From: Clostridia bacterium
GTDB taxonomy: Bacteria; Bacillota; Clostridia; Oscillospirales; QAMX01
Assembly (NCBI GenBank): GCA_017441705.1
Contig: JAFRWU010000003.1
Coordinates: 1 to 47,543, forward strand
DNA: 47,543 nucleotides
Direction of reading: 5' to 3'
This document shows, in pieces, positions 489 to 44,412 of this stretch (positions within the stretch are counted from its first letter, which is position 1; each line of letters opens with the position of its first letter). A program made the translations under genes and the position numbers. The notes under the pieces were generated by a model. That model was given only the letters and a program-made list of their open reading frames with translations, made no database searches and had not been told where the DNA came from.

Positions 489-1544
489 TCAGATCTCGTC
501 GATGCGCGGATCCCAGACCGAGACGCGCTTTCCTTCCCGCACGGAAAGGTAGCAGGCCAGGACCAGCCGCAGGGTGTTTCGTCCCTCCTCGGCGGTGCAG
601 ACCGGGCCGGCCTCGCCCCTGAGGTAATCCGCGAAGGGCTTCGCCTGGGCCTTCAGGCGCTCTCCGTGCGCCGCGGGGCTCGGGATCCCGCTGGGGGTCC
701 AGTCCTTGTCGCCGTTTTTGAACCATTTCAGCCCGGGCTGGCCCGCGGGACGCGGGAGCGCGGTGCTGACGGCGTCGCCGTAATACTGCTGGATCGACCC
801 GCCGGTGAGGTAGATCTCGGTGGTGATCTCCGACGCGGAGGTGGTGAAGCCGCAGGAGATCTCCGCGATCATGCCGTCCGCGTATTTGAAAAGCGCCACG
901 CCGTTGTCGTTCGGGATCTTCGGGTTCGCCATGGTGGTCATTTCGCACATGACCGTCTCCGGCATGCCGAACATCCACTGCATCATGTCGATGGGATGGG
1001 CGGAATCGTCGGCGAAGATGTCGCGGTTCAGCTCCGGCGCCACGTGCCACGCCGTCTCGAAATTCGCCCAGAGATGGGTCGCAAGCCCGTGACGGCGGCG
1101 GTAATGGCAGACCTTGCCGAGACTTCCGTCGTGCACCAGTTCCTTCATCCGGATATTCTGCGGATCGGTGCGGCTCTGCCAGCCCATGGTGAATTTGACG
1201 CCGTTCCGCCTGACCGCGTCGACGATGCGGTCGGCCTCCTTCATGTGCAGCGCCATCGGCTTATAGAGGATGATATCTTTTTTCGCATCGGCCGCGCGCT
1301 CGACGTATTCCGCGTGGAAGCTCGTCTCGCTCGTGATCGCCACCGCGGAAATATCGCTCGCAAGAAGCTCGTCGAGGCTCGAAAAACACGGGATCCCGAG
1401 CTTTTCGCAGCCGTCGGCCGCCCGCGCTCCGTCCCGGTCCCAGCCGCCCGCAAGCTTTACGCCGTATTCGGGATGGGCGTTCCATTCGCCTCCGAAGGAA
1501 AATACGTGGCCGTGTGCAAATCCGATGATTCCGACCTTGATCAT
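489..1544 (-). CDS. Gfo/Idh/MocA family NAD(P)-dependent oxidoreductase
   Basis: A 351-residue cytoplasmic dehydrogenase of the Gfo/Idh/MocA family, which oxidises or reduces hydroxyl groups of sugars, inositols or glycosides with NAD(P). The N-terminus (VGIIGFAHGHV) is the Rossmann nucleotide-binding turn. The usual EKP motif reads YKP (in DIILYKPMALHM), so the catalytic Lys is kept but the preceding Glu is replaced by Tyr. DDSAHPIDMMQWMFG is the family H-x-x-D segment at the active site. The ATG at 1544 follows AAAGGGG. It is divergent from the 1822-8385 operon and shares its control region, so it probably acts in the same pathway. Its substrate cannot be read from sequence. The family call is firm. 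Confidence 0.9.
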   Translation of the reverse strand: MIKVGIIGFAHGHVFSFGGEWNAHPEYGVKLAGGWDRDGARAADGCEKLGIPCFSSLDELLASDISAVAITSETSFHAEYVERAADAKKDIILYKPMALHMKEADRIVDAVRRNGVKFTMGWQSRTDPQNIRMKELVHDGSLGKVCHYRRRHGLATHLWANFETAWHVAPELNRDIFADDSAHPIDMMQWMFGMPETVMCEMTTMANPKIPNDNGVALFKYADGMIAEISCGFTTSASEITTEIYLTGGSIQQYYGDAVSTALPRPAGQPGLKWFKNGDKDWTPSGIPSPAAHGERLKAQAKPFADYLRGEAGPVCTAEEGRNTLRLVLACYLSVREGKRVSVWDPRIDEI

Positions 1545-1821: not shown

Positions 1822-2616
1822 ATGAAGCTTGGTGTGAACACCGTTCTGTTCAAGGGCTTCGGCGTCAAGGAGGCCTTCAAGGCCATCAAGCTCGCCGGCT
1901 ACGACGGAGCGGAGCTTTCCTGCATCGAGGGCATGTGCGAGCATCTGGTGCTCGACGCCTGGGAGACCGAAGCGCCCCTGGTGCGCGCGGCGGCCAGAGA
2001 AGCCGGGATTGAGCTCCTTTCCATGGAGGTGGCAAGCCTGAACGAAGAGCGGCTGAAAAAAGCCTTCGCCGCGGCGCGTTTCCTCGGGATCCCCGTGGTC
2101 AACGTGGGGCCCGGCGGCAAGACCGGCGACGAGGAATCCTTCCTGAACGCGGTCGCCACCCTGAAAAGCCGCGCCGAGCTCGCCGCAGAATACGGCGTGA
2201 AGCTCTGCTGCAAGGCGCACGTGGGCTGCGCCATCGACTCCACCCCCACCACGCTGCGCGCCGCCGGACTTCTGGATCTGCCTTCCTTCGGCGTGGATAT
2301 GGATCCGAGCCACATCTGGCGCGCCGGCGAAAAGCCGGAGAACGCGCTCGCCGCAGTGGTCGCCCGGATGGGACACGTGCACATCCGCGACTGCAAGGGG
2401 CCCGGCCCCTCGCCCGGAGCGCCGGCCGATCAGGCCTGCGGACGCGGCGAGATCAATCTCTTCGGCTATTTCAAGGCGCTGACCGATTTCGGTTACGACG
2501 GACCGGTCTGCCTGGAAGTCATCGGACCCGAGCAGACCATGCCCCAGGCGATGGCCATCGCCGCCGAAAGCTACGGCTACATGAACGCGTGCCTGAAGAT
2601 CCTCGGCGCGCGGTAA
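1822..2616 (+). CDS. Sugar phosphate isomerase/epimerase-like TIM-barrel protein
   Basis: A 264-residue member of the AP-endonuclease-2/xylose-isomerase-like TIM-barrel superfamily. These metal enzymes isomerise, epimerise or eliminate from keto-sugars. The visible metal-site strand ends are GVDMDPSHIWRAGE, HVHIRDCKG and CLEVIG. There is no signal peptide, so it is cytoplasmic. The ATG follows GGAGG with a 10-nt gap. It opens an operon with two sulfatase-fold proteins, two Gfo/Idh/MocA oxidoreductases and a second isomerase; the next gene starts 14 bp after its stop. Pairing with Gfo/Idh/MocA enzymes recalls 3-keto-glycoside routes such as DgpA/DgpC deglycosylation, but that is inference. Inositol or hexulose metabolism is equally possible. 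Confidence 0.85.
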   Translation: MKLGVNTVLFKGFGVKEAFKAIKLAGYDGAELSCIEGMCEHLVLDAWETEAPLVRAAAREAGIELLSMEVASLNEERLKKAFAAARFLGIPVVNVGPGGKTGDEESFLNAVATLKSRAELAAEYGVKLCCKAHVGCAIDSTPTTLRAAGLLDLPSFGVDMDPSHIWRAGEKPENALAAVVARMGHVHIRDCKGPGPSPGAPADQACGRGEINLFGYFKALTDFGYDGPVCLEVIGPEQTMPQAMAIAAESYGYMNACLKILGAR

Positions 2617-2630
2617 GGGAGGAAACGACT

Positions 2631-4007
2631 ATGGGAAACAAGCTGCCGAACATTCTCTTCTTCGGGATCGATTCCCTCCGGCGGGACCACATGAGCAACT
2701 ACGGCTATTCCCGCCTGACCACGCCCCACATCGGCAAGTACGCCGAGGGCGGCGTGACCTTTGAAAACTGCTTCTCACCCCACATTCCCACCACCCCCGG
2801 CTATTCCAACATGCTGACCGGGCGCGACTGCTTCGGCACCGACGTGGTGGGCCTTTCCCAGCCGAAAATCATCGACGGCGTCCCGGTCCTGGCCGAGGTG
2901 CTGCGCGACCGCGGCTACAACACCACCTGCGTGGGCTTCCAGGGCAACGCCGCCGGACGCGGCTACGACAAGTACATCAGCTTCTCCGGATGGGGCCCCG
3001 ACCGCGAGGACGGACGCGCCCACAAGGCCGAAGCCCTCAACGAGGTCGCCATCCCCGAGCTGGAGAGACTGGCGAAGGAGGACAAGCCCTTCTTCCTCTT
3101 CCTGCGCCACATGGATCCCCACAGCCCCTACCTGCCGCCCGAGCCCTTCCAGCATATGTTCTTCCAGGGCGATCCCTGCGATCCCGCCGATCACCGCATG
3201 GAAAAGGTCTACGCCTTCCGTCCCTTCGCCGACTACATCGCAAGCTGGATCCCCAAAGGCTGCACCAATCCCGACTACGTGATCGCTCAGTACGACGCCG
3301 CCCTGGCTTACATGGACGCCTCGATCCAGCGGATCCTGCAGAAGCTCGCCGATCTGGGCATCGAGGACGACACCATCGTCGTCTTCGTCTCCGACCACGG
3401 CGAGACCCTTTACGACCACGACTGCTACTTCGACCATCACGGCATGTACGAGCCGACCCTGACGGTGCCGCTGATCATCCGCTGGAACGGACATCTGCCG
3501 GCGGGCAAACGCATCCCCGACATCTGCCAGCTCAAGGATTTCATGCCCACGCTTCTGGATCTGATGGGCGTCGAGACCGGTCTCCCCTTCGACGGACGGA
3601 GCCTGATGCCTCTGATCCGCGGCGAAGAGCGCGAGCCGGAGCCGGAATTCTACATCACCGAATGCACCTGGATGCGCAAGCACGGCTGGCGCACTCCCGA
3701 ATGGAAGCTGATCGTCTCGCTGGAGCCCGACTTCCACTTCAAGCCGATGCTCGAGCTCTACAACCTCATCAAGGATCCTCTGGAAAATCACAACGTGGCC
3801 GACGAAAACCCCGAGGTGGTGGAGATGCTGCGCGCCAGGATGGAGGCTTTCATCGCAAAGCGTGAAAAGGAAGTCGGCCGCACCGACCCGATCTACCGGA
3901 ACTTCCTTGCCAACGACCGGCCCTTCGCCTCTTCGGAGGAGGCTTACTACGGAAAGTACATCGGCGGCATCGAAGACGCCGTCAAGCTGCAGAAGCAGGA
4001 CAAATAA
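2631..4007 (+). CDS. Sulfatase-fold hydrolase with Thr in place of the catalytic Cys
   Basis: A 458-residue alkaline-phosphatase-superfamily protein resembling arylsulfatases: metal-site Asp14 in FGIDSLRRDH, later SDHGE, and a typical sulfatase C-terminus. The start at 2631 is chosen because GGAGG precedes it by 6 nt; the frame also opens at 2589, inside the previous gene. The active-site motif Cys/Ser-x-Pro-x-Arg reads Thr54-Thr-Pro56-Gly-Tyr58 (PTTPGYSNMLTGR), so formylglycine cannot form and the supporting Arg is missing. Thr nucleophiles occur in phosphodiesterase and phosphotransferase branches of the superfamily, so this may hydrolyse a phosphodiester, or it may be a specialised or inactive sulfatase. 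It has no signal peptide. The following oxidoreductase starts 13 bp after the stop. Confidence 0.85.
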   Translation: MGNKLPNILFFGIDSLRRDHMSNYGYSRLTTPHIGKYAEGGVTFENCFSPHIPTTPGYSNMLTGRDCFGTDVVGLSQPKIIDGVPVLAEVLRDRGYNTTCVGFQGNAAGRGYDKYISFSGWGPDREDGRAHKAEALNEVAIPELERLAKEDKPFFLFLRHMDPHSPYLPPEPFQHMFFQGDPCDPADHRMEKVYAFRPFADYIASWIPKGCTNPDYVIAQYDAALAYMDASIQRILQKLADLGIEDDTIVVFVSDHGETLYDHDCYFDHHGMYEPTLTVPLIIRWNGHLPAGKRIPDICQLKDFMPTLLDLMGVETGLPFDGRSLMPLIRGEEREPEPEFYITECTWMRKHGWRTPEWKLIVSLEPDFHFKPMLELYNLIKDPLENHNVADENPEVVEMLRARMEAFIAKREKEVGRTDPIYRNFLANDRPFASSEEAYYGKYIGGIEDAVKLQKQDK

Positions 4008-4020
4008 AGGAGGAACGCGA

Positions 4021-5040
4021 ATGCTGAGAGTCTGCGTCATCGGCCTGGGACACATCGGGAACCTGCACGCGACCATCTACAAGGAAGACGAAATGGTGGA
4101 GCTCGTCGGCGTGTGCGATCTGATCGAGGAGCGCGCAAAGGCCGCCTCGGAACGCCTCGGCGTTCCCTACTGGCTGGACGCGCCGACCATGCTCCGGGAA
4201 GTCAAGCCCGACCTGGTCTCGGTGGCCACCGGCGGATACGAGTATTCCTCCGATCACTGCCTGCCCACGATCCAGGCGCTGGAGGCCGGATGCCACGTGC
4301 TGTGCGAAAAGCCCATCTCCAACTCCATCGAGGACGGGCGGCGCATGGTGGCGGCGGCAAAGAAAAACGACCGCTGCTTCGCCCTGGACTTCAACCACCG
4401 CTTCACCCCCGCCGCACGCACGGCGAAGAAGTGGCAGAACGAGGGACGGATCGGCGACCTGCTCTTCTGCAACATGGCGCTGTGGATCGGAAAGCCCCAG
4501 CCTCTGGAATCCCCCTATTATCACCTGAAGGCCCTGAATCCCCATTCCTGCGAGATCATCCGTTACTTCATGGGCGACGTGGAGGCGGTGCAGTGCTTCG
4601 CGATGATGGCGCCGGGACGCAATATCTGGTCCACGGCCTCCATCAACATGAAGTTCAAGTGCGGCGCGGTGGGTCATCTGACCTCCAGCTACGACATCGC
4701 CCGCGGCCATCCGATGGAACGGTGCGAGGTGGCGGGTCTGAAGGGCCGGCTGGTCTTCGAGGACATGTGGCGCGAGGCGACCCTTTACCCCGCGGGCGAT
4801 CCGGTGAAGCTCGTGTATACCAATCCGGTCTTCGGCGGATATTCCAATTTCGACGACACCTTCCGGGAGAGGATCCGCTGCTTCGTGCGCGAAGTGGCCG
4901 CCGGCACCCGTCCCGAGGATATCGACGGCAGCGGCCTGCAGGGCCTGAAGGCCCAGATGATCATCCACGCCGCCATCGAATCGCTGGACACCGGGCGCGT
5001 GGTCTATCTGGAAGAAATGTTCCCCGACGTTTACGCCTGA
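4021..5040 (+). CDS. Gfo/Idh/MocA family oxidoreductase
   Basis: A 339-residue NAD(P)-dependent dehydrogenase. RVCVIGLGHIGN is the Rossmann loop, LCEKPISNSIED carries the family EKP motif with the catalytic Lys, and YYHLKALNPHSCEIIRYF is the active-site helix. The frame is open from 3862, but ATG 4021 has a perfect AGGAGG 6-8 nt upstream and begins the fold correctly. It is closely related to the next gene: both share an H-x-K-A ... H-x-S ... R-[YH]-F-x-G-D segment instead of the common GGG-x-x-x-D pattern, which suggests a duplicated pair working on related substrates. Cytoplasmic; substrate unknown. Confidence 0.9.
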   Translation: MLRVCVIGLGHIGNLHATIYKEDEMVELVGVCDLIEERAKAASERLGVPYWLDAPTMLREVKPDLVSVATGGYEYSSDHCLPTIQALEAGCHVLCEKPISNSIEDGRRMVAAAKKNDRCFALDFNHRFTPAARTAKKWQNEGRIGDLLFCNMALWIGKPQPLESPYYHLKALNPHSCEIIRYFMGDVEAVQCFAMMAPGRNIWSTASINMKFKCGAVGHLTSSYDIARGHPMERCEVAGLKGRLVFEDMWREATLYPAGDPVKLVYTNPVFGGYSNFDDTFRERIRCFVREVAAGTRPEDIDGSGLQGLKAQMIIHAAIESLDTGRVVYLEEMFPDVYA

Positions 5041-5068
5041 AAAGGGCGACATCAAAGAGAAGGAGAAA

Positions 5069-6178
5069 ATGAATATGGCAATCAAAGTAGCGATCGTCGG
5101 TATGGGCGGCATCGGCAACACCCATGCGAGAGTCTATATGCAGGATCCCCGGGCGGAGCTTGTCGCGGTATGCGATCTGGTGAAGGAAAAGGCCGACAAG
5201 GCCGCCGAAGCCTACGGCTGCCGCGCCTTCTACGACGAGGAGGAAATGCTCAAGGCCATGCCGGAAATCGAAGCGGTGTCGGTCACCACTTCGGGTTACG
5301 ACAACGGTTCCATGCACTTTGAGCCGGCGATGCTGGCCCTTTCCTACGGCAAGCACGTTCTGGTGGAAAAGCCGATCTGCGCCGACATCCGCGACGCGCG
5401 GGAGCTGGTCGCCTACGCCGACAGACAGAAGCTCTACCTCGGCTGCGATCTGAACCACTACTTCACCGGTCCGGCTTACGACGCCGACAAGATGATCGCG
5501 AACGGCGATATCGGCGAACTGGTCTACTGCGTTCACAAGGTCGGCTTCAACGGCAGCGAAAAGAAGTACGGCGGCGCGGGCTCTCCCCGCTGGCTGACCC
5601 CGTACTCCCACATCAAGGCCTTCTGCGCCCATCCCTTCAGCGTGATGCGCCATTTCTGCGGCGACATCGTGGGCGTGCAGGCTTTCCTTTCCAAGCCCGG
5701 CGTGCGCGCCACGGCCTGCGATCCGATGCTTTCCATCTGCTCGATCCACGTGAAGTTCGCCAACGGCGGCGTCGGCTACCTCCTCAGCCAGCGCGGCGAC
5801 GCCATGTTCGGGCTGGGCGGCTGGTGGAGCTACGAGCACGCCGGCACCCGCGGCACCTTCTGCATCGAGAACGCGGTGGAGAAGCTGCATTACTGGGATG
5901 TGGACAAGGTCGAAAACCCCGGCATGGCCTCCCCGACGCCGGTGACCAAGGACTACGGCGTCTCGGACTTCGGCAGCACCTTCCCGAACCGGATCGGCGC
6001 CTTCCTGGAGGATCTGGAGAACAAGGTCCCGCGTGAATACCTCCGCGCCTCCGGCCGCGACGCGCTGGCCACGCTGGAATACACCTTCGCCGCCATCAAG
6101 TCCTACGAGAACGGCGGCATCCTGGTGGTGCCCGAGATGCTCCCGCCGCTCCACGGCGACATCTCCAGAGTCTGGTAA
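5069..6178 (+). CDS. Gfo/Idh/MocA family oxidoreductase (paralogue of the preceding gene)
   Basis: A 369-residue dehydrogenase with Rossmann motif IVGMGGIGNTH, the LVEKPICADIRD EKP motif and the SHIKAFCAHPFSVMRHF active-site segment shared with its upstream neighbour. AGAAGGAG lies 4 nt before ATG 5069 and 10 nt before an in-frame ATG at 5075, so the start may be two codons later. The C-terminal half also carries NHYFTGPAYDADKM, again resembling the neighbour. It overlaps nothing, and the next gene begins 3 bp after its stop. The role is oxidation or reduction of a sugar or glycoside hydroxyl within this operon; the substrate is unknown. Confidence 0.9.
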   Translation: MNMAIKVAIVGMGGIGNTHARVYMQDPRAELVAVCDLVKEKADKAAEAYGCRAFYDEEEMLKAMPEIEAVSVTTSGYDNGSMHFEPAMLALSYGKHVLVEKPICADIRDARELVAYADRQKLYLGCDLNHYFTGPAYDADKMIANGDIGELVYCVHKVGFNGSEKKYGGAGSPRWLTPYSHIKAFCAHPFSVMRHFCGDIVGVQAFLSKPGVRATACDPMLSICSIHVKFANGGVGYLLSQRGDAMFGLGGWWSYEHAGTRGTFCIENAVEKLHYWDVDKVENPGMASPTPVTKDYGVSDFGSTFPNRIGAFLEDLENKVPREYLRASGRDALATLEYTFAAIKSYENGGILVVPEMLPPLHGDISRVW

Positions 6179-6181
6179 TCC

Positions 6182-7573
6182 ATGAATTTTCTTCTGATCA
6201 ACGCCGATCAGCTCCGGCACGACGCGGTGGGATACCGCGGACTGCGGGATGTGAAGACTCCCAACCTGGACCGGCTGGCCCGGGAGAGCGTCGATTTCCG
6301 GGAGGGGTTCACCCCCCTCCCGGTCTGTTCTCCCGCGCGTCAGTCGATCCTTTCGGGACGTCATCCCGACAGCTTCGGCGCCCAATGGAATTACGATTTT
6401 ATCCCCACGCCGCGGCTGGATCCGGCCTGGTGCTGGCCCCGCGCGCTCGAAAGCCGGGGCTGGAACACCGGTTACGTCGGCTCCTTCCACGTGGCGCCCG
6501 AGCGCGACGCCCGTCCCTACGGCTACCGGGATTTTATCAGCAGCGCGGAGCACAAAAAGCTCCTGTCCGAAAAATACCCCGGCGCGGTCTACTCCGGCGG
6601 ATGGTTCGGCTGTCCGAGCCCGATCCCGCTGGAGGACAGCGCGACCCACTGGACGGCCGGGAAGGCGGTCTCTCTTCTGGAAAAATACGTCTCGTCCGAC
6701 AGGCCGTGGCACCTCTGGGTGGACTTTGAGGAGCCGCATCTCCCCTGTCGTCCCTCGGCTCCCTTCGACGCCATGTACGATCCCGCCTCGATCGCTCCGT
6801 GGCCGGGATACGGCGACGACTTTCACGACAAGCCTTACATCCACCGCCAGCAGACCTGGAGCTGGGATACCGACGCGTGCACCTGGGAAAGGGATTTCGC
6901 GCCTATGGTCGCCCGGTATTTCGGCGTGGTCAGCCAGCTGGACGACGCGATCGGCCGGATCCTCGACTGCCTCCGCCGGAGCGGAAAGTGGGACGACACC
7001 GTCGTCGTCTTCACCTCGGACCACGGAGACATGTGCGGAAGCCATCAGATGCTGGACAAGCACTACGTGCTTTATGACGACATCCTGCGGGTCCCCTTCC
7101 TGGTGAAATACCCCGGAGCCGCGCCGCGGGTCAGCGGGGAATTCGTGCAGAACACGCTCGACCTTCCCGCCTCGCTTCCCGCGTGGCTGGGGATCGATCT
7201 GCCCGTTCCCTCTCACGGCCGTCCTCTGCCGCTCGCGGCGGAGGAGGAAAAGGGCCGGCGGGAGATCGTCTCCACCTCAAACGGCCAGCAGTTCGGACTG
7301 TATACCGCCCGGGCCATCCGCACGAAAAAGTGGAAATATGTGTGGAACCTTACCGACGTGGACGAGCTTTACGATCTGGAATCCGATCCCGGCGAAAAGG
7401 AAAACCGCGTTTCGGATCCCTCTCTTCGCGAACTGCTCGCCGATCTGCGCCGGCGGCTCTGGGATGATCTCGCGGCGCACGGCGATCCCTTTACCGGAAG
7501 CGCCTGGCTCAGGCACCAGCTTCTGGACGGCAGGATCGTGCCGCCGGAGCTTGCAAGGAAAGGGACCTCATGA
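6182..7573 (+). CDS. Cys-type sulfatase (formylglycine-dependent), cytoplasmic
   Basis: A 463-residue type I sulfatase. PVCSPARQSILSGR holds the C-x-P-x-R motif, with Cys49 the residue converted to formylglycine and Arg53 its partner. NADQLRHD is the N-terminal metal site, and VVVFTSDHGD and DKHYVLYD complete the active site. It should hydrolyse sulfate esters of sugars. There is no signal peptide, unlike most sulfatases of host-glycan degraders, so the sulfated substrate must be imported. No maturase (anSME) is in the window. There is almost no ribosome binding site: the ATG lies 3 bp after the previous stop and behind a small palindrome, CCAGAGTCTGG (6166-6176), so translation is probably coupled. 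It overlaps the next gene by ATGA. Confidence 0.92.
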   Translation: MNFLLINADQLRHDAVGYRGLRDVKTPNLDRLARESVDFREGFTPLPVCSPARQSILSGRHPDSFGAQWNYDFIPTPRLDPAWCWPRALESRGWNTGYVGSFHVAPERDARPYGYRDFISSAEHKKLLSEKYPGAVYSGGWFGCPSPIPLEDSATHWTAGKAVSLLEKYVSSDRPWHLWVDFEEPHLPCRPSAPFDAMYDPASIAPWPGYGDDFHDKPYIHRQQTWSWDTDACTWERDFAPMVARYFGVVSQLDDAIGRILDCLRRSGKWDDTVVVFTSDHGDMCGSHQMLDKHYVLYDDILRVPFLVKYPGAAPRVSGEFVQNTLDLPASLPAWLGIDLPVPSHGRPLPLAAEEEKGRREIVSTSNGQQFGLYTARAIRTKKWKYVWNLTDVDELYDLESDPGEKENRVSDPSLRELLADLRRRLWDDLAAHGDPFTGSAWLRHQLLDGRIVPPELARKGTS

Positions 7574-8385
7574 AAATCGCGGCATTTTACGAAAACGTCG
7601 CCGAGGGCGCCCGCGCTTCCGGTGTCTCTCTGGAAAAGGCCCTCTCCGGTCTGCAGGAGGAGGGCCTCTCGCTCCTCTGTCTGACGCCCGAATCCTGGGA
7701 AAAGGACGCGGGGCTTCTCGGGCCGGTCCTGGAAAAGACCGGGATCGGGATCGAGGGACTTCACGCCGTATGCGATTTTGCGCGGGAACCCGGAACCGAA
7801 CGATACAAAGCGGTCATCGACCTCGCCCTTTCGCTCGGCGCGGGGAACGTGCTTTTGATCCCCGGCTTCCTCACCACGGGAAACACCGAAGAGGCGTTGC
7901 GCCGCATGACCGGGGGCATGCGCCGCGCAGCGCGGTACGGCGCGGAGAAAGGCATGCCGGTCCTGATGGAGGATTACGACGGGATGCTCGCTCCCTTCAA
8001 CTCCATCGCGGGGCTCGCATATTTCCTGGACGCCGTCCCGGAGCTCGGCTGCGCTTTCGACACCGGCAATTTCTGCATGTACCGCGAGGACGAGCTTTGC
8101 GCCTTCGAGCGGTTCGCCGGCCGGATCGTGACGGTTCACCTGAAGGACCGGAGCGATCTTCCCTTCTTCCCCGGCGACAGTTTCAAGGTCTGCGCCGATC
8201 TGGAAAAGATCTGGCCCGCCCCGGTGGGAAGCGGGTCGATCCGCATCGCGGAGATCCTCAGAGAGCTGCAGATGCGCGCCTATCCCGGAAACGTCATCGT
8301 CGAGCATTACGACGTGGACCCGGAAAGGATGCTGTCCGCGATCCGGACCTCGGTGGCCTGGGTGCGGGATTTTCTTGCGGAGTAA
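7570..8385 (+). CDS. Sugar phosphate isomerase/epimerase-like TIM-barrel protein
   Basis: A 271-residue xylose-isomerase-like TIM-barrel protein, the last gene of the operon. The likely metal ligands are in LMEDYDG, CAFDTGNF, TVHLKDRSD and VIVEHYD. It starts on the ATGA shared with the sulfatase stop, so the two are translationally coupled and probably act on the same molecule. It is only distantly similar to the 1822-2616 isomerase, so it should catalyse a different step. It has no signal peptide. The reaction (isomerisation, epimerisation or beta-elimination of a keto-sugar) cannot be decided from sequence. Confidence 0.85.
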   Translation: MKIAAFYENVAEGARASGVSLEKALSGLQEEGLSLLCLTPESWEKDAGLLGPVLEKTGIGIEGLHAVCDFAREPGTERYKAVIDLALSLGAGNVLLIPGFLTTGNTEEALRRMTGGMRRAARYGAEKGMPVLMEDYDGMLAPFNSIAGLAYFLDAVPELGCAFDTGNFCMYREDELCAFERFAGRIVTVHLKDRSDLPFFPGDSFKVCADLEKIWPAPVGSGSIRIAEILRELQMRAYPGNVIVEHYDVDPERMLSAIRTSVAWVRDFLAE

Positions 8386-13130: not shown

Positions 13131-13703
13131 TCATACCTGCTTTGCCGGGAGTGTGAGGATCGCTCCTCCGAGAAGGCGCGCGTCCTCCAGGGAATGCGTG
13201 CTCACCAGAAGCGGCCTTTTCTGCTCCAGGATCAGGGCGATCATCCTTTTCGTCAGCTCCGCGTCCAGCCCCTTGAAGGGCTCGTCCAGGATCAGGAGCC
13301 CATCTCCGTAAGCCAAGGCGCGGGCAAGGGCCACGCGTCGCTGTTGGCCGCCCGAGAGAGCGGAGGGAAGCGCGTCAAAGCTCTCCCCGGGAAGCTCCAC
13401 TTTTTCGAGCCACCGGCCGGCCTCCCCGCGTTTCCCCTTCGGCAGGACCGCCGCGACGTTTTCCTCCGCCGAAAACCAGGGAAGCAGGCGGTCCTCCTGA
13501 AAGAGGAAGGACGCCGGTCCCTCCGCGCCGCGGATCGCGCCTGCGTCCGGCTTCAGAAGCCCCGCGATCAGACGGAGAAGCGTCGTCTTGCCGCAGCCGG
13601 AAGGCCCCATCAGGACGGCCGCCGGACCGGGGATCTCCAGCGAAAAGTCCCGGAAGACCGGCGTCCTGCCGTAGGAAAAGGAGAGAGAGTCGATTTCGAT
13701 CAT
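13131..13703 (-). CDS. ABC transporter ATP-binding protein (SsuB/TauB/ThiZ-like)
   Basis: A 190-residue ATPase of the nitrate/sulfonate/pyrimidine-precursor importer class, short for the family (about 240-260), with an abbreviated C-terminus after the H loop. Walker A GPSGCGKT, Q loop FLFQEDRLLPW, signature LSGGQQRR, Walker B LLILDEP and H-loop STHSLED are all intact. The start at 13703 overlaps the permease stop (ATGA); the longer frame to 13928 runs inside the permease gene and is not used. It is the last gene of the importer operon and powers the permease at 13700-14464. Confidence 0.9.
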   Translation of the reverse strand: MIEIDSLSFSYGRTPVFRDFSLEIPGPAAVLMGPSGCGKTTLLRLIAGLLKPDAGAIRGAEGPASFLFQEDRLLPWFSAEENVAAVLPKGKRGEAGRWLEKVELPGESFDALPSALSGGQQRRVALARALAYGDGLLILDEPFKGLDAELTKRMIALILEQKRPLLVSTHSLEDARLLGGAILTLPAKQV

Positions 13704-14464
13704 TTCGCTCCGCCCCCTTTCCTTTTGATCAGAGCCACGAATCCCTTTTCCAGGATCCAGCTCAGAAGGATCACCACCGCCGTCCACGCGAAAAGATCGG
13801 CGGTCTCCAGATAGATTTTGGAATAGTAGATCTCCGTGCCGAGACTGAGCCTCGGCAGACACAGGACCTCCGCCGCGACGCCCGATTTCCACGCGAGCCC
13901 CAGAGCCGTCACCGCGCCGGCGCGCCATGCGGGCGCCACGGAGGGGACGTACACCTTTTCAAGGGTCTTCCGGAATCCGAATCGATAGCTTTTCGCCATT
14001 TCCAGAAGCAGCGGATCGGCGCTCCGGATCCCCGCCGCGGTGTTTTCCCATACCACCGGCAGGACCATCAGCATGCTGATGAAGCCCGGGACCTGCGTCT
14101 TGCCGATCCACAGGAAGGCCAGGATGATAAAGGAGGCCACAGGCGTCGCCCGCGCCACCCGGATCACGGGCGAGAGGATCGCGTCGGCGGGCGAAAAGAA
14201 CGAGGTCAGGACTGCAATCAGCGTCCCGAAGAGGACCCCGCAGAGAAAGCCCGCGAGGATCCGGCCGAGGCTGATCCCGGCGGTCAGCCAGAACTCGCCC
14301 GTCCCGGCCAGGACGAAGAGCCGTTTCGCCACCGCCCACGGCGCGGGCAGGATCAGCTCCTCGCTCACCAGCATGGCCGCAAACTGCCAAAGGGCGATCC
14401 AAAACAGGACCGCCCCGGCGTTTTTCAAGAGTTTTTTCAGCGTGTTCCGGTCAGGCGACTTCAT
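13700..14464 (-). CDS. ABC transporter permease (SsuC/TauC/ThiX-like)
   Basis: A 254-residue inner-membrane permease with about six helices. It has the cytoplasmic EAA-type loop (MAKSYRFGFRKTLEKVYVPS), where the ATPase docks. The family imports sulfonates, taurine, nitrate or the thiamine precursor HMP. It overlaps the substrate-binding gene by 14 bp and the ATPase gene by 4 bp, so the three are translated as a unit. Because the binding protein does not reveal its ligand, the substrate stays open. Confidence 0.9.
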   Translation of the reverse strand: MKSPDRNTLKKLLKNAGAVLFWIALWQFAAMLVSEELILPAPWAVAKRLFVLAGTGEFWLTAGISLGRILAGFLCGVLFGTLIAVLTSFFSPADAILSPVIRVARATPVASFIILAFLWIGKTQVPGFISMLMVLPVVWENTAAGIRSADPLLLEMAKSYRFGFRKTLEKVYVPSVAPAWRAGAVTALGLAWKSGVAAEVLCLPRLSLGTEIYYSKIYLETADLFAWTAVVILLSWILEKGFVALIKRKGGGAK

Positions 14465-15560
14465 AATAGATGCCGTCGTCGGGGAGCTTGCCGCCGACAG
14501 AGGCCGGATCGGCCTGGAAGAGCACCGAGAAGTATCCGTCCAGGTATCCCTTCATGGCGTCCTTGCCGGAGACAAAGGTCAGACCGCACTGCGGCAGGGC
14601 GGCTTTCGCCACCGGGACGGCGCCGACGATCTCATACTTCACGGCGAGCTCGGCCGCCGCGTCGAGATTCGCGGAATCCTTCATATAGTCGATGGACGCC
14701 CGGTAGTCCTTCAGGAAGGAGGCGGCCGCCGCGTCGGACACCTTGTCCGCGCGATAGACGACGCAGCCCTGGGTCAGGATGCTGCCGTCGGCGCTGACCT
14801 TTTCCCATTCGGCGTTCAGATCCAGCGCGTCGCGGGCGTTTTCGCCCTTCATCAGAACGGTGGTGGCAAGCGGGACCGGCAGCATGCACAGGTCGGCCTT
14901 GCCGGTGGTCATCCGCGTGACGATCTCATCGTTGGGGAGGAATTCCACCGTGACGTCTTTCCCCGGCTCCAGGCCGTTCTGCCGGAGGATATAATTCAGG
15001 ACGTACTCCGGATTGGCTCCCTGGCCAGTGGCGAGGATCGTCTTGCCCTTGAGGTCGGCGACGCTTTGGACCGTTTCGCCGTTTTCCAGGATATGCAGTA
15101 CGCCCAGCGTGTTGATGGCCAGGATCCTGACCTTGCCTTCGGTCTTGTTATAAAGGACCGCGGCGGCGTTGGTGGGGACGGCGGCGATATCCAGCTCGCC
15201 CGAGATGATCGAGGGCAGGACGTTCGAGGCGTCGGCCTCCAGCGTCACCTTGTAGGAGATCTCCAGCCCGCCGGCTTCGTTCTGCTCCATAAAGCGGGCG
15301 GCGCCGATGCCGGTGGGCCCCTTCAGGAAGCCGACGCTCAGGCTTTCGGGCAGGGTCTCTTCAGACCCGCTAGTCTCTTCAGACCCGGTCTCGCTTTCGG
15401 AGGCGGGTGCGGAGGCGGGCTCGGACCCGCTCTGTGGCGCGGTTTCCGAATCGGCCGGCCGGCTTTCCGGGGTTTGGGTTGTCGTTTCGGCGTTTCCGCC
15501 GCAGGCGGCCAGCGAGATCAGAAGTCCCAGCGCCGCGATCAGAGCAATGATCTTTTTCAT
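14451..15560 (-). CDS. ABC transporter substrate-binding lipoprotein (NMT1/SsuA-like)
   Basis: A 369-residue lipoprotein. The signal peptide ends in the lipobox LAAC with Cys20. A Thr/Ser/Glu/Pro-rich linker of about 45 residues, with short SGSEE-type repeats, tethers the binding domain to the membrane. The periplasmic-type fold has NMT1/ThiY features (LPESLSVGFLKGPTGIGAARFME). GCAAGGAG precedes the ATG. It delivers a small ligand (sulfonate, thiamine precursor, nitrate-like or other) to the permease. It sits 47 bp downstream of a Crp/Fnr-family regulator gene and is probably under its control. Confidence 0.9.
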   Translation of the reverse strand: MKKIIALIAALGLLISLAACGGNAETTTQTPESRPADSETAPQSGSEPASAPASESETGSEETSGSEETLPESLSVGFLKGPTGIGAARFMEQNEAGGLEISYKVTLEADASNVLPSIISGELDIAAVPTNAAAVLYNKTEGKVRILAINTLGVLHILENGETVQSVADLKGKTILATGQGANPEYVLNYILRQNGLEPGKDVTVEFLPNDEIVTRMTTGKADLCMLPVPLATTVLMKGENARDALDLNAEWEKVSADGSILTQGCVVYRADKVSDAAAASFLKDYRASIDYMKDSANLDAAAELAVKYEIVGAVPVAKAALPQCGLTFVSGKDAMKGYLDGYFSVLFQADPASVGGKLPDDGIYYEVA

Positions 15561-15589
15561 GTTTTTCTCCTTGCCGTGTTTTCTCTATA

Positions 15590-15608
15590 AAAACCCTTCG
15601 GGGGTTTT
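15590..15608 (-). terminator. Small hairpin between the regulator and importer genes
   Basis: AAAACCC (15590-15596) and GGGTTTT (15602-15608) form a 7-bp stem. On the minus strand it is followed by a short T-rich run. It overlaps the stop codon of the regulator gene. It may partly terminate transcription, lowering importer expression relative to the regulator, or serve as a processing site. Confidence 0.45.
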
Positions 15609-16303
15609 CACCTTGCGTCGAATTCCCGGAGCGCCTCCGGATCGGGGATCAGGATCCTTTTCCCTTCGCGGCGGATCAGACCGTTCTCCTCCATTTCGTC
15701 CAGCGCCCGGTAGAGCGACGCCCTTCCCATGTTCAGCGTGTCCGCAAGAGCCGAATAACTGACCGCGAGCCGGAGGACATATCCCTCTTCCTCGCGGCGG
15801 GCGTTTTTCAGGAGATAATTCCGCAGCGTCCCGCCGGTGGAGGGGGTCGTGAGCGAGCGGATCTTTTCGTTCAGGAAACGCACCCGCTCCGAAAGAAAGA
15901 CGATATAGTTTTCCGCAACCGCGGGATCTTCAACCAGAAGCCGTGCAAGAAGCGCCTGCGGCAGGAAAAGCACGCGGCACCGCGTCTCGGCGGTGAGGCG
16001 CGTCGCATAATCCTCCTCGGGGGAAAAGACCGCCGCGGCGCCGAAGGGATCGCCCTTCGAAAGCGTGCGCATCCGGTAGCGCGGCGCGCTGCCGCCCGAA
16101 ACGCGGATCCGGCCGGAAAGCACCAGTCCCACCGCGCGGGCAAAATGCGCCGAATCAAAGACCGTCTCCCCTTTTTCATAGCTCCCGACCCTTGCCAGGG
16201 GATCGGAAAGCGCGCCGGAAACCGTTTCGTCTTTGGCGTTCCGGAAGAGAAAGGAGGAGCGCACGAGTTCCTTTTCGTCGGCTTTCAACTCCATGGGATC
16301 CAT
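15608..16303 (-). CDS. Crp/Fnr family transcriptional regulator
   Basis: A 231-residue regulator: N-terminal cyclic-nucleotide-binding-like beta roll, long dimer helix (about 125-150) and C-terminal winged helix (YSALADTLNMGRASLYRALDEME). No CxxxC cluster of FNR type is seen, so it is not an obvious oxygen sensor. The ATG at 16303 is chosen because AGGAGG lies 6 nt upstream; the frame continues to 16372 without another site. Its promoter is consensus and carries an 18-bp palindrome over the start site, so it very likely represses itself. The ABC importer genes directly downstream are its probable targets. Confidence 0.9.
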   Translation of the reverse strand: MDPMELKADEKELVRSSFLFRNAKDETVSGALSDPLARVGSYEKGETVFDSAHFARAVGLVLSGRIRVSGGSAPRYRMRTLSKGDPFGAAAVFSPEEDYATRLTAETRCRVLFLPQALLARLLVEDPAVAENYIVFLSERVRFLNEKIRSLTTPSTGGTLRNYLLKNARREEEGYVLRLAVSYSALADTLNMGRASLYRALDEMEENGLIRREGKRILIPDPEALREFDAR

Positions 16304-16318
16304 GGTCGCCCTCCTATT

Positions 16319-16336
16319 CTGTCTCATTTGATACAG
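16319..16336. promoter_or_regulatory. Operator candidate for the Crp/Fnr-type regulator
   Basis: CTGTCTCATTTGATACAG is a near-perfect palindrome: 7-bp arms with one mismatch around ATTT. It covers about +1 to +18 of the regulator's own transcript, between the promoter and ribosome site. Arm length and spacing fit the Crp/Fnr family (FNR box TTGAT-N4-ATCAA is similar), so autorepression is expected. Confidence 0.6.
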
Positions 16337-16343
16337 CTTTATC

Positions 16344-16372
16344 ATTATACGTCGGTTTCTCGTTTTTGTCAA
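16344..16372 (-). promoter_or_regulatory. Consensus SigA promoter of the Crp/Fnr-type gene
   Basis: On the minus strand TTGACA (16367-16372), exactly 17 bp, then TATAAT (16344-16349): all twelve bases match the consensus. Such a strong promoter would need repression, in keeping with the palindrome just downstream. Confidence 0.9.
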
Positions 16373-37941: not shown

Positions 37942-40900
37942 TTATCTGCGGCGCTTTTTTGCGAGGCGCTTCCCTGCGACGGACAGGACCGCGGCAAGTC
38001 CGAACAGACCGGCCGAAGCCAGGACGAATCCGATTGCCCGGTTCGTCCCGCCGCCGGCGCCGGGCGCATCCGGTCCTTCCGGTCCGGCCAGCTCCTTCCC
38101 CGTCCGGAAGGCGTCCGCGGGATTGACAAGATAGATCTCCTCGTTGGACTGCCGGTTGCCTTCCGCATCCACCAGCGACACGTAAGCGCCGCGCAGGCCG
38201 TCCTTGAGACCGTCTTTCCATACGCCGTCCATATCGACGTCGAAATAATAGGTCCGGCCGACGGGCTCTTCGCTCTCCGGATCGAACCGGCAGAGGAGCT
38301 CTTTTGTGGGCAGATCGAATCTGAGCTCTCTCGCTTTCTTCGCGGGATCTCCGTAATCCAGTCTGACCCTGACGATCGGCGTCTTTTCTCCGACCAGCGC
38401 GTTGTTGGTAATGGCGGTGCTGATGACGTGTCTGCCGCCGATCAATGCGTTCCTCGCCGTCAGGGAGGTGTCGTCGGCGAGCATTTTCGCCGAATTGACC
38501 ACGTCGTCAAGGCTGCCTTCGTACCGGTATCCGTCGGCCACCTCTACGATGATCTCGTGCTCTTCGTTCTTCTTCCAGGCGGGGCTGGGCCGGATCAGGA
38601 TCCGGTCGACCCTCGTGTCGCCGGTATACAGTTCGTTCCCGGTGTAGAAGTAGCCCTCTCCGCTGAAATCGGTTTTGCCGTTGGTCATCATCAGGCGGGT
38701 CCCGTTTTCGTCCTTCACCACGTAAGGGACCGGATTCTCCCGGCCGTAACCGTAATTCCTGACCGTGACGAACGCCTCGATGCAGGGCTGACCCGTAAGC
38801 ACCAGATAGTCCGGGATCCGCACCTGCGTGACGAGCAGTCCCTTGTCGGCGTTCTGCTTCCACATTTTGATATTGCAGGCATAGCGGGATCCCTCCCCGG
38901 CCGGCGCCGCATAGGCGACGGTCAGACCGCTTGCCCGGCACTCGTCCGGGTTATACGCGGCGGTGAAGCAGCTGATCTTTTCGCCTTTCGCGAATTTCAG
39001 ATCCAGCGGCCCGTGAAGCGTGCAGGAGAGACCGCCCGACCCGTTCCGGTCGGTGGTGATGGTGTAAATCTTAACGACGTTGCCGCCTTTTTCCGCCGTG
39101 CCAGCTTCTACGTCGACCTCGTAATCTCCGACGACGCCGATCAGGTAGACGGCGGACTGGTTGTTGTTGGTGATCATGGCGTAATGGTTGTCGACCGACA
39201 CGACGCCGGAGCCGTTGATCACCTTTTCCACCGTCCATTCGTAATCGGAGGGATCGGTCCCCCTGGCTTTCTTCGACATCCAGTAGACGCTGTCGCCGGC
39301 GATAAAGTAGCTGCAGCCGTTCAGATACTGCCAGTTGGTGATGATCGAATCGAAGGATACCGTGCCGTCCCGGATACTCTCCACGTTGACCATGCCCTCG
39401 ATATCGATGCGGAAATTGCACCGGAGCGTCTCCTCATAGTATCCGTTGGCGCCGTAGCCTTTGACGTAGAGGTATTTGTCCGAGGATTTGCTGCCGTCCA
39501 CCGTCCAGAAGCTCGGCTCGTTCGGCGCGACGGCTCCGGTGGAATAGACCTTGTTCCTGCCCAGATTGCGGAAGGAGCGTTCCGCCGGATTTCCGTCCGC
39601 GCCCCAGGAGATATAATAGTCGGTGGTTTCCGGGACCGCGCCCAGAAGCGCCTTCAGCCCGTCGACGCTCTTCCCGTTGTCGTCCCGGAGACGGGTCGCG
39701 GCGTATGCGACCGCCGAAAAGCTTCCGCTGCCCACGGGAAGCGGCGCGCTGTAGAAAACCTGTCCCTTTGCCTCGGGGTCGCTCGCGATCACCGAGCTTA
39801 CCGTGTATTCCCGATCCAGATCGACCACGATGGACGCGACGTCCGTGCTCCGCATCCTCGCATTCTCATCCGTGAGCGTATTGTCCGCCAGGATCGCGCC
39901 GATATAGACCTTGTTGCAGTTTTCGGGATCGTCCCGGTCGGTCTTGTTGGGGACGACGACGAATTCCGAGACCGATCTGGTCTCCCCTTCGGGAAGCCTG
40001 ACCTTATAAAGGCCGGAATAGAGATCCCCCGTCTCCCTGTTCTGGAGCTGATAATAAATATCGGTCCTCTGCCCGTTGGAGGCAATGCGGAAAAGCGCGG
40101 TACAGTCCTTCGTCGCGGCAAACTGAAGCTGGGGGTCCGGATAAATGCTGGAATCCACGGGAACGATGCTCGAATTCCCTTCCAGCCGGTCGTCCGCGCT
40201 CCGGAGCGTATAGAATTCGTCATGGGGGACTCCATCCTCCGCAGACGCCTGCAGGACGAATTTTTCCGCGCAGTCCGCGAGGGAAAGATCGTTGAATTCC
40301 ATTCCCTTCAGGGCTTCCCCGAGTTTATCATACTCACCGTTGCTGTCGGCAAGCCGCTGCGCTCCGTTCAGGCAGTCCAGACTGACGGTCCCGCTGTAGA
40401 AGAGGATATAGTATTCAATTTTCAGACCGTACAGCACGTCGATAAAGCTGTGCGGTTTCCCGAATTCCGTCCGTCCTTTCCCGATCACCGTCGCGATATC
40501 AAAGTCGACGTATCCCGTGGCACAGGCGCCGAGCACGCCCTTGACGCCCACGCCGCCGAAGACCGAGAAGCCGATGATCACCTCGATCCGGGCGTTGACG
40601 TCCGTGCCGTCGTCGGTGGAGTATTTCCATTCCCTGTCCTGGTCGTGTCCGGTGGGCGGCCGGTCCATGCCGAAGTTGACGTTGAGCGCCGTCTTGACGG
40701 CGATATGCCCTTCGAATCCGATATAGACGGGAAGGATGACGGGGCCGACCGGAAGGAGGAAGTATTCGGTGACGCCCGCGGTGAAGCTGCCGCTGAACAG
40801 GATGCCGCCGCTTCCGTAGTTGTCGTTCGTTTCCTTGTTGTAGCAGGAGCGCAGGAAAAGCGAAAAGCTCATCGAGAAATCGTAGTTGAAGTTGCTGACG

Positions 40901-42381
40901 CATTTGATCTTTCGCTGGGATTCCAGGATCTTGTCGCCCTTTTTGACCTTTTCCGTGTTCTCCCAAAAGCTCTTTTCGAAAATCTCCAGCGGATCCTGAA
41001 GATTCTCGGTATCCTTGGGATTCCAGGATTTCTCGAACAGAGAGCTGAATTTGTATTGGGTGTTCGGATCGAGCTGAGTGATGTCGTAGGAGGCCATCAG
41101 GATCATGGTGCCGTCCGGGAACATGCCGAAGCTGACCGGGACCTTGAGCATCTGCATCGTTTGATTCAGGAAGCCGCCGCCGGACATCCGGTCGGAAACG
41201 CTGCCGTCCAGAGCCTTCGTGGTGACGGGCACCTCGGTTTCCCCGGCGGCGGGATTCACGACCGCGTTTTCCACGGTCACGTGTTCCAGAGCGAACGCTT
41301 CGTTTCCCAGCCTGACGCTGACCCGGTCTCCGTCCTTCAGAAGCCCGGCGCTCTGTTCCGCCCACCTTCTGGAGACGGTGTAGACCCGGGTGTTCGAGTC
41401 GTAGGGGTATTCGGAGACGTCGCCGATCGACAGGATCGTCTCGCCCCGGCTGTCGGAGAAGATCTCCGCCGAAGACGGGAATTCGGCGTTCCCCCGTTTG
41501 GTGACGATGACCTTCAGGGTCAGATCGGCCGTGTTCATATTCACGAGGGAGAGCTTGGTCTCCTCGTTCACCATATCCTTGCCGGCCAGATCCACGCCGC
41601 GGATATATACCTCGTTTTCTTCGGCTTCCTCCAGCACGACGGTGAAATGCCTGCCCTGGCCCATAAGCTTGTCCAGGATGGAGACCGAACGGTACCCTTC
41701 GGCCTGGATATCCACAAGCCCGAAGAATTCGTCGGGAAGCTCGTCGAACACCGCGATGCCGGGCGTGTTGCCGCCGGTCGCCGGAACGCTTTTCGTGACG
41801 CGCCTGCCCGACGCGTCCAGATAGGAGATGGTGACCAGCGCGTTGGGAACGCCCATGCCGTCCGGCCCCTTGACGAACCAGCTCATGGCGTCCTTGTCGA
41901 CGACAAAAACCCAGCCGCCGGCGTTGGAATCGCCGCCGAGGACCTTGACTTTTTCTTGCCGGTTGTTCGTCAGGCCGATCTCGGATCCCATCAGGAGATT
42001 GCCGCTCTGCAGGTATTTTTTCAGTCCGCCGGTCGAGAGGAAATGCTCGACTCTGCCGAGAACCAGGGAAACGTCCCGGTCCTCCGCCGGCTCGAAGCCG
42101 GAGACGACGTCGATCGCCGAGGAGAACCGCTCCTTCGCCTCCTCCGAAATCATGGAGTCGATCACGTCCGCGTCCTCGTTTGAAACCCGGCCGCAGACGT
42201 CGGCAGGATCCGTATAGGTCGGAAGCTTTGAGGAATCGGTGACGTTTTCGAGCATCTTTTCGTCCGCCGCGGGGAAGCCGGCCGCCTCTTTGCCGACGCC
42301 ATCGGCGAAGGCGCCCGCCGTACCTGTGAAAATCAGCACCGCCGTCAATAGAAGGCTGAGGATCGCCTGGATCTTTTTCAT
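37942..42381 (-). CDS. Very large surface/secreted protein with C-terminal membrane anchor
   Basis: A 1479-residue protein. Signal peptide 1 to about 27 (hydrophobic LLTAVLIFTG, then AFADG). A carboxypeptidase-regulatory-like Ig fold is likely at about 165-250. The middle (about 480-720) contains Gly-rich hydrophobic strands (VILPVYIGFEGHIAV, VIIGFSVFGGVGVKGVLG) that I cannot assign. The C-terminus has a Pro/Gly linker, one membrane helix (about 1447-1466) and a basic tail KKRRR. There is no LPxTG motif, so it is not a sortase substrate of the classical type. Its function is unknown; adhesion or extracellular scaffold is a guess. GC content and codon use resemble its neighbours. The ribosome site (TTAGGA) is weak, and no clear promoter is seen. 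Confidence 0.75.
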   Translation of the reverse strand: MKKIQAILSLLLTAVLIFTGTAGAFADGVGKEAAGFPAADEKMLENVTDSSKLPTYTDPADVCGRVSNEDADVIDSMISEEAKERFSSAIDVVSGFEPAEDRDVSLVLGRVEHFLSTGGLKKYLQSGNLLMGSEIGLTNNRQEKVKVLGGDSNAGGWVFVVDKDAMSWFVKGPDGMGVPNALVTISYLDASGRRVTKSVPATGGNTPGIAVFDELPDEFFGLVDIQAEGYRSVSILDKLMGQGRHFTVVLEEAEENEVYIRGVDLAGKDMVNEETKLSLVNMNTADLTLKVIVTKRGNAEFPSSAEIFSDSRGETILSIGDVSEYPYDSNTRVYTVSRRWAEQSAGLLKDGDRVSVRLGNEAFALEHVTVENAVVNPAAGETEVPVTTKALDGSVSDRMSGGGFLNQTMQMLKVPVSFGMFPDGTMILMASYDITQLDPNTQYKFSSLFEKSWNPKDTENLQDPLEIFEKSFWENTEKVKKGDKILESQRKIKCVSNFNYDFSMSFSLFLRSCYNKETNDNYGSGGILFSGSFTAGVTEYFLLPVGPVILPVYIGFEGHIAVKTALNVNFGMDRPPTGHDQDREWKYSTDDGTDVNARIEVIIGFSVFGGVGVKGVLGACATGYVDFDIATVIGKGRTEFGKPHSFIDVLYGLKIEYYILFYSGTVSLDCLNGAQRLADSNGEYDKLGEALKGMEFNDLSLADCAEKFVLQASAEDGVPHDEFYTLRSADDRLEGNSSIVPVDSSIYPDPQLQFAATKDCTALFRIASNGQRTDIYYQLQNRETGDLYSGLYKVRLPEGETRSVSEFVVVPNKTDRDDPENCNKVYIGAILADNTLTDENARMRSTDVASIVVDLDREYTVSSVIASDPEAKGQVFYSAPLPVGSGSFSAVAYAATRLRDDNGKSVDGLKALLGAVPETTDYYISWGADGNPAERSFRNLGRNKVYSTGAVAPNEPSFWTVDGSKSSDKYLYVKGYGANGYYEETLRCNFRIDIEGMVNVESIRDGTVSFDSIITNWQYLNGCSYFIAGDSVYWMSKKARGTDPSDYEWTVEKVINGSGVVSVDNHYAMITNNNQSAVYLIGVVGDYEVDVEAGTAEKGGNVVKIYTITTDRNGSGGLSCTLHGPLDLKFAKGEKISCFTAAYNPDECRASGLTVAYAAPAGEGSRYACNIKMWKQNADKGLLVTQVRIPDYLVLTGQPCIEAFVTVRNYGYGRENPVPYVVKDENGTRLMMTNGKTDFSGEGYFYTGNELYTGDTRVDRILIRPSPAWKKNEEHEIIVEVADGYRYEGSLDDVVNSAKMLADDTSLTARNALIGGRHVISTAITNNALVGEKTPIVRVRLDYGDPAKKARELRFDLPTKELLCRFDPESEEPVGRTYYFDVDMDGVWKDGLKDGLRGAYVSLVDAEGNRQSNEEIYLVNPADAFRTGKELAGPEGPDAPGAGGGTNRAIGFVLASAGLFGLAAVLSVAGKRLAKKRRR

Positions 42382-44399: not shown

Positions 44400-44412
44400 A
44401 CTCCGCCCTCCG

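Follow-up and report, generated by a model that had tools for sequence, protein, structure and literature searches.

The gene at 2631-4007 encodes a protein with a sulfatase fold (designated T1) that carries threonine at the position of the formylglycine (fGly) precursor, and it shares an operon with an ordinary fGly-type sulfatase. This raises the question of whether T1 is an active enzyme and, if so, whether the group that it releases is sulfate. The gene was analysed in its window, i.e. the whole stretch of 47,543 nucleotides, and among its relatives in other genomes.

Signature residues, predicted fold and conservation of T1

The T1 open reading frame begins with the ATG at 2631 and its stop codon ends at 4007, with a Shine-Dalgarno-like aaggGAGGaaa just 5′. 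The first core strand coincides with the start of the protein and there is no evident signal peptide or membrane segment, suggesting that T1 is probably cytoplasmic. The gene and its key codons are as follows.

2631..4007, + strand: Thr-type sulfatase-fold hydrolase (T1), 458 aa (PF00884; AlphaFold2 model; S1 sulfatase folds nearest)
2790..2804, + strand: T54-T-P-G-Y58 codons, covering by sequence the nucleophile position and that of the lost Arg (neither T54 nor Y58 varies in 45 homologues)
3114..3122, + strand: D162-P-H164, H164 being the sulfatase leaving-group His and D162 one of the proposed second-metal residues (invariant in 45 T1 sequences)
3390..3401, + strand: S254-D255-H256-G257, metal-site residues (D255 and H256 invariant)
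3432..3440, + strand: D268-H269-H270, in place of the Lys of the sulfatase leaving-group pair (all three invariant in T1; the sister CxPSR group has [D/E]H as well)

The comparator was the sulfatase at 6182-7573, which has C49-S-P-A-R53, D9 and SDHG from residue 279. The preliminary description had proposed that Thr54 and Tyr58 replace Cys49 and Arg53 of this neighbour, that Asp14 and SDHG are kept, and that T1 is thus not an ordinary fGly sulfatase. Reading both genes bore this out: T54-T-P-G-Y58 stands against C49-S-P-A-R53, so that the fGly precursor is replaced by Thr and the supporting Arg is lost, and D14 and S254-D255-H256-G257 of the metal site are present. Beyond that description, T1 also lacks the GK lysine, whose position is F103, and the Lys of the leaving-group pair, whose position is D268-H269-H270 (MAFFT and HMMER equate the lost Lys with D268 or H269, varying by sequence). 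The Pro of T-x-P is not strictly conserved among T1 homologues, TTSGY also occurring.

PF00884 covers residues 6-314 of T1 (2.2e-51) and matches the comparator at 4e-36, both proteins having an SGSH_C-like end; the PF01663 (NPP) match of T1 is 2.2e-9. The top NCBIfam matches (arylsulfatase, choline-sulfatase, PehA and Mn-arylsulfatase) were far under their cut-offs, indicating that T1 is covered by no curated family, and T1 members are named simply sulfatase wherever annotation was visible. The structure prediction that had been suggested was run with AlphaFold2 on 45 sequences (pLDDT 91.3, pTM 0.92) and gave a sulfatase fold. Foldseek and VIA-align placed the model among S1 sulfatases and phosphonate monoester hydrolases, with S1 sulfatases best; the closest solved fold by VIA-align was 6hr5 (S1_25; Z 36.0, rmsd 3.2, 353 residues), and the C-terminal subdomain is present. 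The structure match lists were full of sulfatases and listed no NPP folds, an absence that carries no weight.

T54, Y58, D162, H164, D255, H256, H263, D268, H269 and H270 were invariant in all 45 aligned homologues (from Clostridia, Paenibacillus, Lederbergia, Armatimonadota, Lentisphaeria and Planctomycetota), and D14 was kept in at least 90% of them, with Glu in some close relatives; invariance of the signature across the 45 homologues excludes a chance motif. A further invariant block comprises E344-T346-W347-R349-K350-G352-R354-T355-P356 and L364-E365-P366-D367-H369, and these two segments, E344-P356 and L364-H369, probably bind the substrate. The dN/dS of T1 was 0.10 against the closest congener and 0.16-0.23 against three others, showing that the gene is under purifying selection. 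Together with the invariant T54, Y58 and metal residues, these values for four pairs indicate that T1 is not a decaying pseudoenzyme.

The operon and its relatives

The T1 gene belongs to an operon of six co-directional genes (1822-8385, spacing at most 28 bp). Its other members and a divergent neighbour are as follows.

489..1544, − strand: divergent Gfo/Idh/MocA oxidoreductase beside the operon (PF01408 7.6e-21; recurs in relatives as cluster 13, 11 loci)
1822..2616, + strand: AP_endonuc_2 / sugar phosphate isomerase-epimerase-like TIM barrel, 15 bp upstream of T1 (PF01261 6e-26)
4021..5040, + strand: Gfo/Idh/MocA oxidoreductase, directly downstream of T1 (PF01408 3.4e-25)
5069..6178, + strand: second Gfo/Idh/MocA oxidoreductase (PF01408 2.9e-27)
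6182..7573, + strand: ordinary CxPxR (fGly-type) sulfatase, accessory operon member (PF00884 4e-36; C49-S-P-A-R53)
7570..8385, + strand: second AP_endonuc_2 TIM barrel, with a 4-bp overlap at the sulfatase stop (PF01261 3e-22)

Of 21 genomes from the same family, 12 encoded T1 homologues, as did 20 of 391 from the class (57-93% identity; the own genome is counted in both). In a sample of 249 genomes of the phylum the window gene was the sole match at E 1e-40, implying that no smooth continuum surrounds the T1 family; matches outside the family drop to about 30% identity. A GTDB scan yielded at least 581 stretches encoding T1 relatives, and the hosts of the best 80 of these included rumen and gut Clostridia, Paenibacillus, Cohnella, Lederbergia, Armatimonadota, Lentisphaeria and Planctomycetota. 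Viral contigs searched with the query patterns gave no match, and among the matches listed from phage and plasmid collections one was a true T1 member (on a Paenibacillus megaplasmid), the others having less than 32% identity.

Neighbour counts were taken from related genomes and from the best 80 of the at least 581 relatives; 50 loci, each at least 18 kb long, had long flanks. The core order was Gfo/Idh, AP_endonuc_2, T1, Gfo/Idh: AP_endonuc_2 was present in 49/50 long-flank loci and at least two Gfo/Idh genes in 45/50. A CxPxR sulfatase was found in only 31/50, and a second Thr-type protein in 25/50. The earlier suggestion that the co-occurrence of both enzyme types points to two different ester bonds on the same substrate did not hold up as a general rule, since the CxPxR partner is missing from the other loci and the core consists of T1, Gfo/Idh and AP_endonuc_2.

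APS kinase was present in 31/50 long-flank loci, in nine of them without any CxPxR sulfatase, and ATP sulfurylase in 7/50. By chance alone, an APS kinase would be expected to fall within about 20 kb in roughly 1% of genomes (1-3 copies per 4-8 Mb), with the qualification that the loci are not independent. The window locus, like many others, contains neither APS kinase nor Sat. The Lederbergia citrea locus runs, in order, second Thr-type, Sat, CysC, AraC, a small ASRT-like protein (read from sequence), Gfo/Idh, AP_endonuc_2, T1 and Gfo/Idh. Elsewhere in Lederbergia and in Bacillus, Sat, an SLC13-like permease (named from sequence) and CysC lie downstream. The Paenibacillus APS kinase (L064 and others, cluster 4) is divergent, scoring 207-217 bits with TIGR00455 versus 255-291 for the Lederbergia copies; it has no linked ATP sulfurylase, and its substrate may be other than APS.

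The draft isolate genomes of L. citrea and L. citri contained no CxPxR sulfatase and neither FGE nor anSME over the cut-off, and their PF00884 proteins were Thr-type only, apart from LtaS-like (LtaS-sized) ones. The presence of Thr-types without FGE or anSME in these two genomes implies that the enzyme does not depend on the fGly machinery. The genome of the window encodes two anSMEs, so its CxPxR partner can be matured.

Three other regions of the window, all on the − strand, were recorded. An SsuABC/Sao-like ABC importer (ATPase, permease and binding protein, the latter two with profile matches under cut-offs) with a Crp/Fnr-like regulator lies at 13131-16372, 5 kb from the sulfatase operon, and is possibly a transporter of sulfonate or a similar compound. 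The region at 37942-42381 encodes a protein of 1479 residues whose start resembles a signal peptide and whose C-terminal end resembles a membrane anchor. Three tandem paralogous ferredoxin-type proteins at 42490-45492 are weakly QueG/reductive dehalogenase-like (E 1e-6 to 1e-13, far under cut-offs).

Phylogeny of the Thr-types and their CxPSR sister group

The phylogeny called for in the preliminary description was carried out within the sulfatase branch, with 155 aligned proteins from eight genomes and several plasmids. Thr-type proteins made up 31 of the 155 and fell into three motif types, TxPxY, TxxxH and TxPxF. The second type (IPTEVAH or IPTEAVH) occurs in the same operons as T1 in Paenibacillus, Cohnella, Lederbergia and Gracilibacillus; the third, PTHPSF, was seen directly 3′ of a TxPxY gene on a Planctomycetota contig (L216/L217, G656:C615). 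All 31 formed one clade (FastTree support 0.995, and 0.81-0.83 with the signature columns masked), and its sister was a group of 17 CxPSR proteins, one of which is CxPAR. The two groups together were supported at 0.98 by FastTree, and at 0.997 with the signature columns masked. With masked columns, IQ-TREE gave SH-aLRT values of 95 for the Thr clade, 99 for the sister group and 98 for both together.

In the sister group both catalytic lysines are gone, and D162-P-H164 (once D-V-H) and [D/E]268-H269 are common to it and the Thr-types, D162 and H164 being present in all Thr-types and all 17 sister proteins. The simplest path suggested by these sequences would lead from an ordinary fGly site through an fGly site with a new acidic/His cluster to the Thr site; the tree is unrooted, and this order of events presumes a root among ordinary lysine-bearing sulfatases. 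Haloarchaeal and Streptomyces relatives were at one point taken for Thr-types, and all those fetched proved to be C-type, which led to the sister group. Its haloarchaeal members adjoin Gfo/Idh and sugar isomerase genes, and an FGE gene adjoins one of the CxPSR genes. The genome of the window has a member of its own (L004, C102:7863-8858), a CxPSR sulfatase in which EH replaces the catalytic Lys, belonging to an uncharacterised fGly-motif subgroup. A PDB sequence search found no close solved member of the sister group.

Proposed reaction, alternatives and significance

We rate the chances as about even that T1 is an active, fGly-independent hydrolase with a Thr nucleophile, derived from S1 sulfatases and cleaving a small sulfate ester, probably in the cytoplasm. 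From the observed sequence features, conservation, selection, phylogeny, predicted fold and gene linkage, we infer the Thr nucleophile, a second metal, a covalent intermediate, sulfate as the group removed and the class of substrate. Thr54 would act as nucleophile and, together with D14, D255 and H256, would coordinate the ordinary metal. The cluster D162, H164, D268 and H269 (perhaps with H263 and H270) would make up for the missing fGly Arg and the two missing lysines; it most likely holds a second metal, which would activate both the leaving group and the hydrolytic water in the manner of nucleotide pyrophosphatases. D162, [D/E]268 and H269 resemble a second metal site and by homology would lie around the leaving group, which is where the second metal is sited in ENPPs and alkaline phosphatases. 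Catalysis would then proceed by double displacement, with Thr-O-sulfo (or phospho) as the covalent intermediate. The leaving group of choline sulfatase is stabilised by a His-Lys pair (PMC5870055); compared with this pair, the His is kept in T1 as H164, whereas the Lys is replaced by D-H. Choline sulfatase with an unmodified Cys is still a multiple-turnover enzyme (PMC6189696), implying that fGly is not strictly required chemically. The pathway partners of T1 would be the Gfo/Idh dehydrogenases and the sugar isomerase-like TIM barrel, and its substrate is most likely a small sulfated molecule that the cell imports: a sugar, a glycoside or a cyclitol.

The preliminary description had left the choice between a phosphodiester- or phosphonate-type hydrolase and a new sulfatase mechanism. 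This was the right pair of alternatives, and the linkage to APS kinase and ATP sulfurylase, kept also where no fGly sulfatase exists, tips the choice towards sulfate. The loss of the sulfate-binding Arg and lysines speaks against sulfate and suits a phosphodiesterase equally well. In the main alternative, T1 would be a phosphodiesterase, phosphatase or phosphonate-type hydrolase, its sulfatase scaffold remodelled to an NPP-like two-metal Thr site that cleaves a phosphodiester-linked sugar or polyol, the fGly sulfatase removing sulfate where present; we consider this possible though doubtful. It is favoured by the lost cationic residues together with the NPP-like nucleophile, a Thr nucleophile with two metals being the arrangement of ENPPs, which use two zincs (PMC11677397), and the folds close to that of T1 include phosphonate monoester hydrolases. 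However, the recurrent neighbours include no phosphate-related genes but do include APS kinase, ATP sulfurylase and an SLC13-type anion permease, the link to sulfate activation persists without any fGly sulfatase, and the fGly motif is retained in the sister group as CxPSR, once with an adjoining FGE gene.

The same linkage could point to a sulfuryl (or phosphoryl) transferase using PAPS from the linked Sat/CysC, by analogy with Thr-type LtaS, phosphoethanolamine transferases or the sulfatase-like AcmG. CysC or Sat-CysC is linked in operons without reduction genes, the sole APS kinase found in Paenibacillus sp. XY044 is at the position of the operon copy, and AcmG of ascamycin biosynthesis, annotated as a sulfatase, is needed in a PAPS-dependent pathway (PMC4257720). 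Yet APS kinase and Sat are absent from many loci, that of the window included, and the importers, dehydrogenases and isomerase look catabolic, making a transferase improbable. That T1 is a catalytically dead homologue with a binding or regulatory role appears very improbable: T1 lacks residues regarded as essential in S1 sulfatases, namely both lysines and the fGly precursor with its Arg, but Thr54, Asp/Glu14, Asp255, His256, His164 and the new polar residues are conserved in the 45 sequences, and two further Thr-type lineages retain the same set of residues.

T1 shares with S1 fGly sulfatases (PF00884; SulfAtlas S1) the fold, D14/D255/H256, the leaving-group His164 and the C-terminal subdomain; unlike them it has no C/S-x-P-x-R, fGly, GK lysine or leaving-group Lys and possesses D162, D268 and H269. 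Like NPP/ENPP it has Thr in the place of the nucleophile and, by alignment, Asp, Thr, Asp and His as first-metal ligands (D14, T54, D255, H256), and it may also have a second metal, D162, H164, D268 and H269 being co-conserved in the Thr-types and the sister group, whereas its profile match is far better to PF00884 than to PF01663 and its proposed second-site ligands are in sulfatase-type positions. LtaS and phosphoethanolamine transferases, also Thr-type PF00884 proteins, have the Thr nucleophile and the D/E-T-D-H metal set but are long membrane proteins (e.g. TxNxE), while T1 is a soluble protein with TTPGY in the sulfatase branch. The phosphonate monoester hydrolases RlPMH and BcPMH are close structural neighbours with Asp/His metal ligands, but they use fGly from CxPxR, where T1 has Thr54 as its putative nucleophile, and they keep the lysine. 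The CxPSR sister group (L004, haloarchaea, Paenibacillus) matches T1 in D162-P-H164, [D/E]268-H269 and the lack of catalytic lysines; unlike T1 it keeps Cys and Arg, so it can carry fGly.

Thr in place of Cys was noted in 2016 in about half of the PF00884 Pfam seed (30/59), with the advice that TxNxE proteins should not be called sulfatases without evidence (PMC5066984), and LtaS-type members have been characterised (PMC4192460). Our literature search found no described Thr-type sulfatase family beyond the LtaS-type cases and no assayed enzyme of the Thr clade, nor any homologue reported to be an ordinary sulfatase or dead. Thr in PF00884 is therefore already known; what is new is the soluble Thr clade of the sulfatase branch, its sister with a rewired site and the linkage to sulfate activation. 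Tentatively, and as something possible rather than probable, these proteins may form an fGly-free class of sulfatases, in which the S1 fold would have exchanged its lysines for a second metal with fGly kept and then fGly for Thr, and in which two-metal, double-displacement cleavage of sulfate esters would feed a dedicated sulfate-activation module.

The CxPSR sister group provides a traceable intermediate between the one-metal fGly site and the Thr site. Should T1 and its relatives cleave sulfate esters, a sulfatase of the alkaline phosphatase fold could do without fGly, against the working rule of annotation (PMC5066984), and there would be sulfatases that need no maturation enzyme. With at least several hundred loci in the family, its true chemistry has consequences for numerous annotations in bacteria from gut, rumen and soil.
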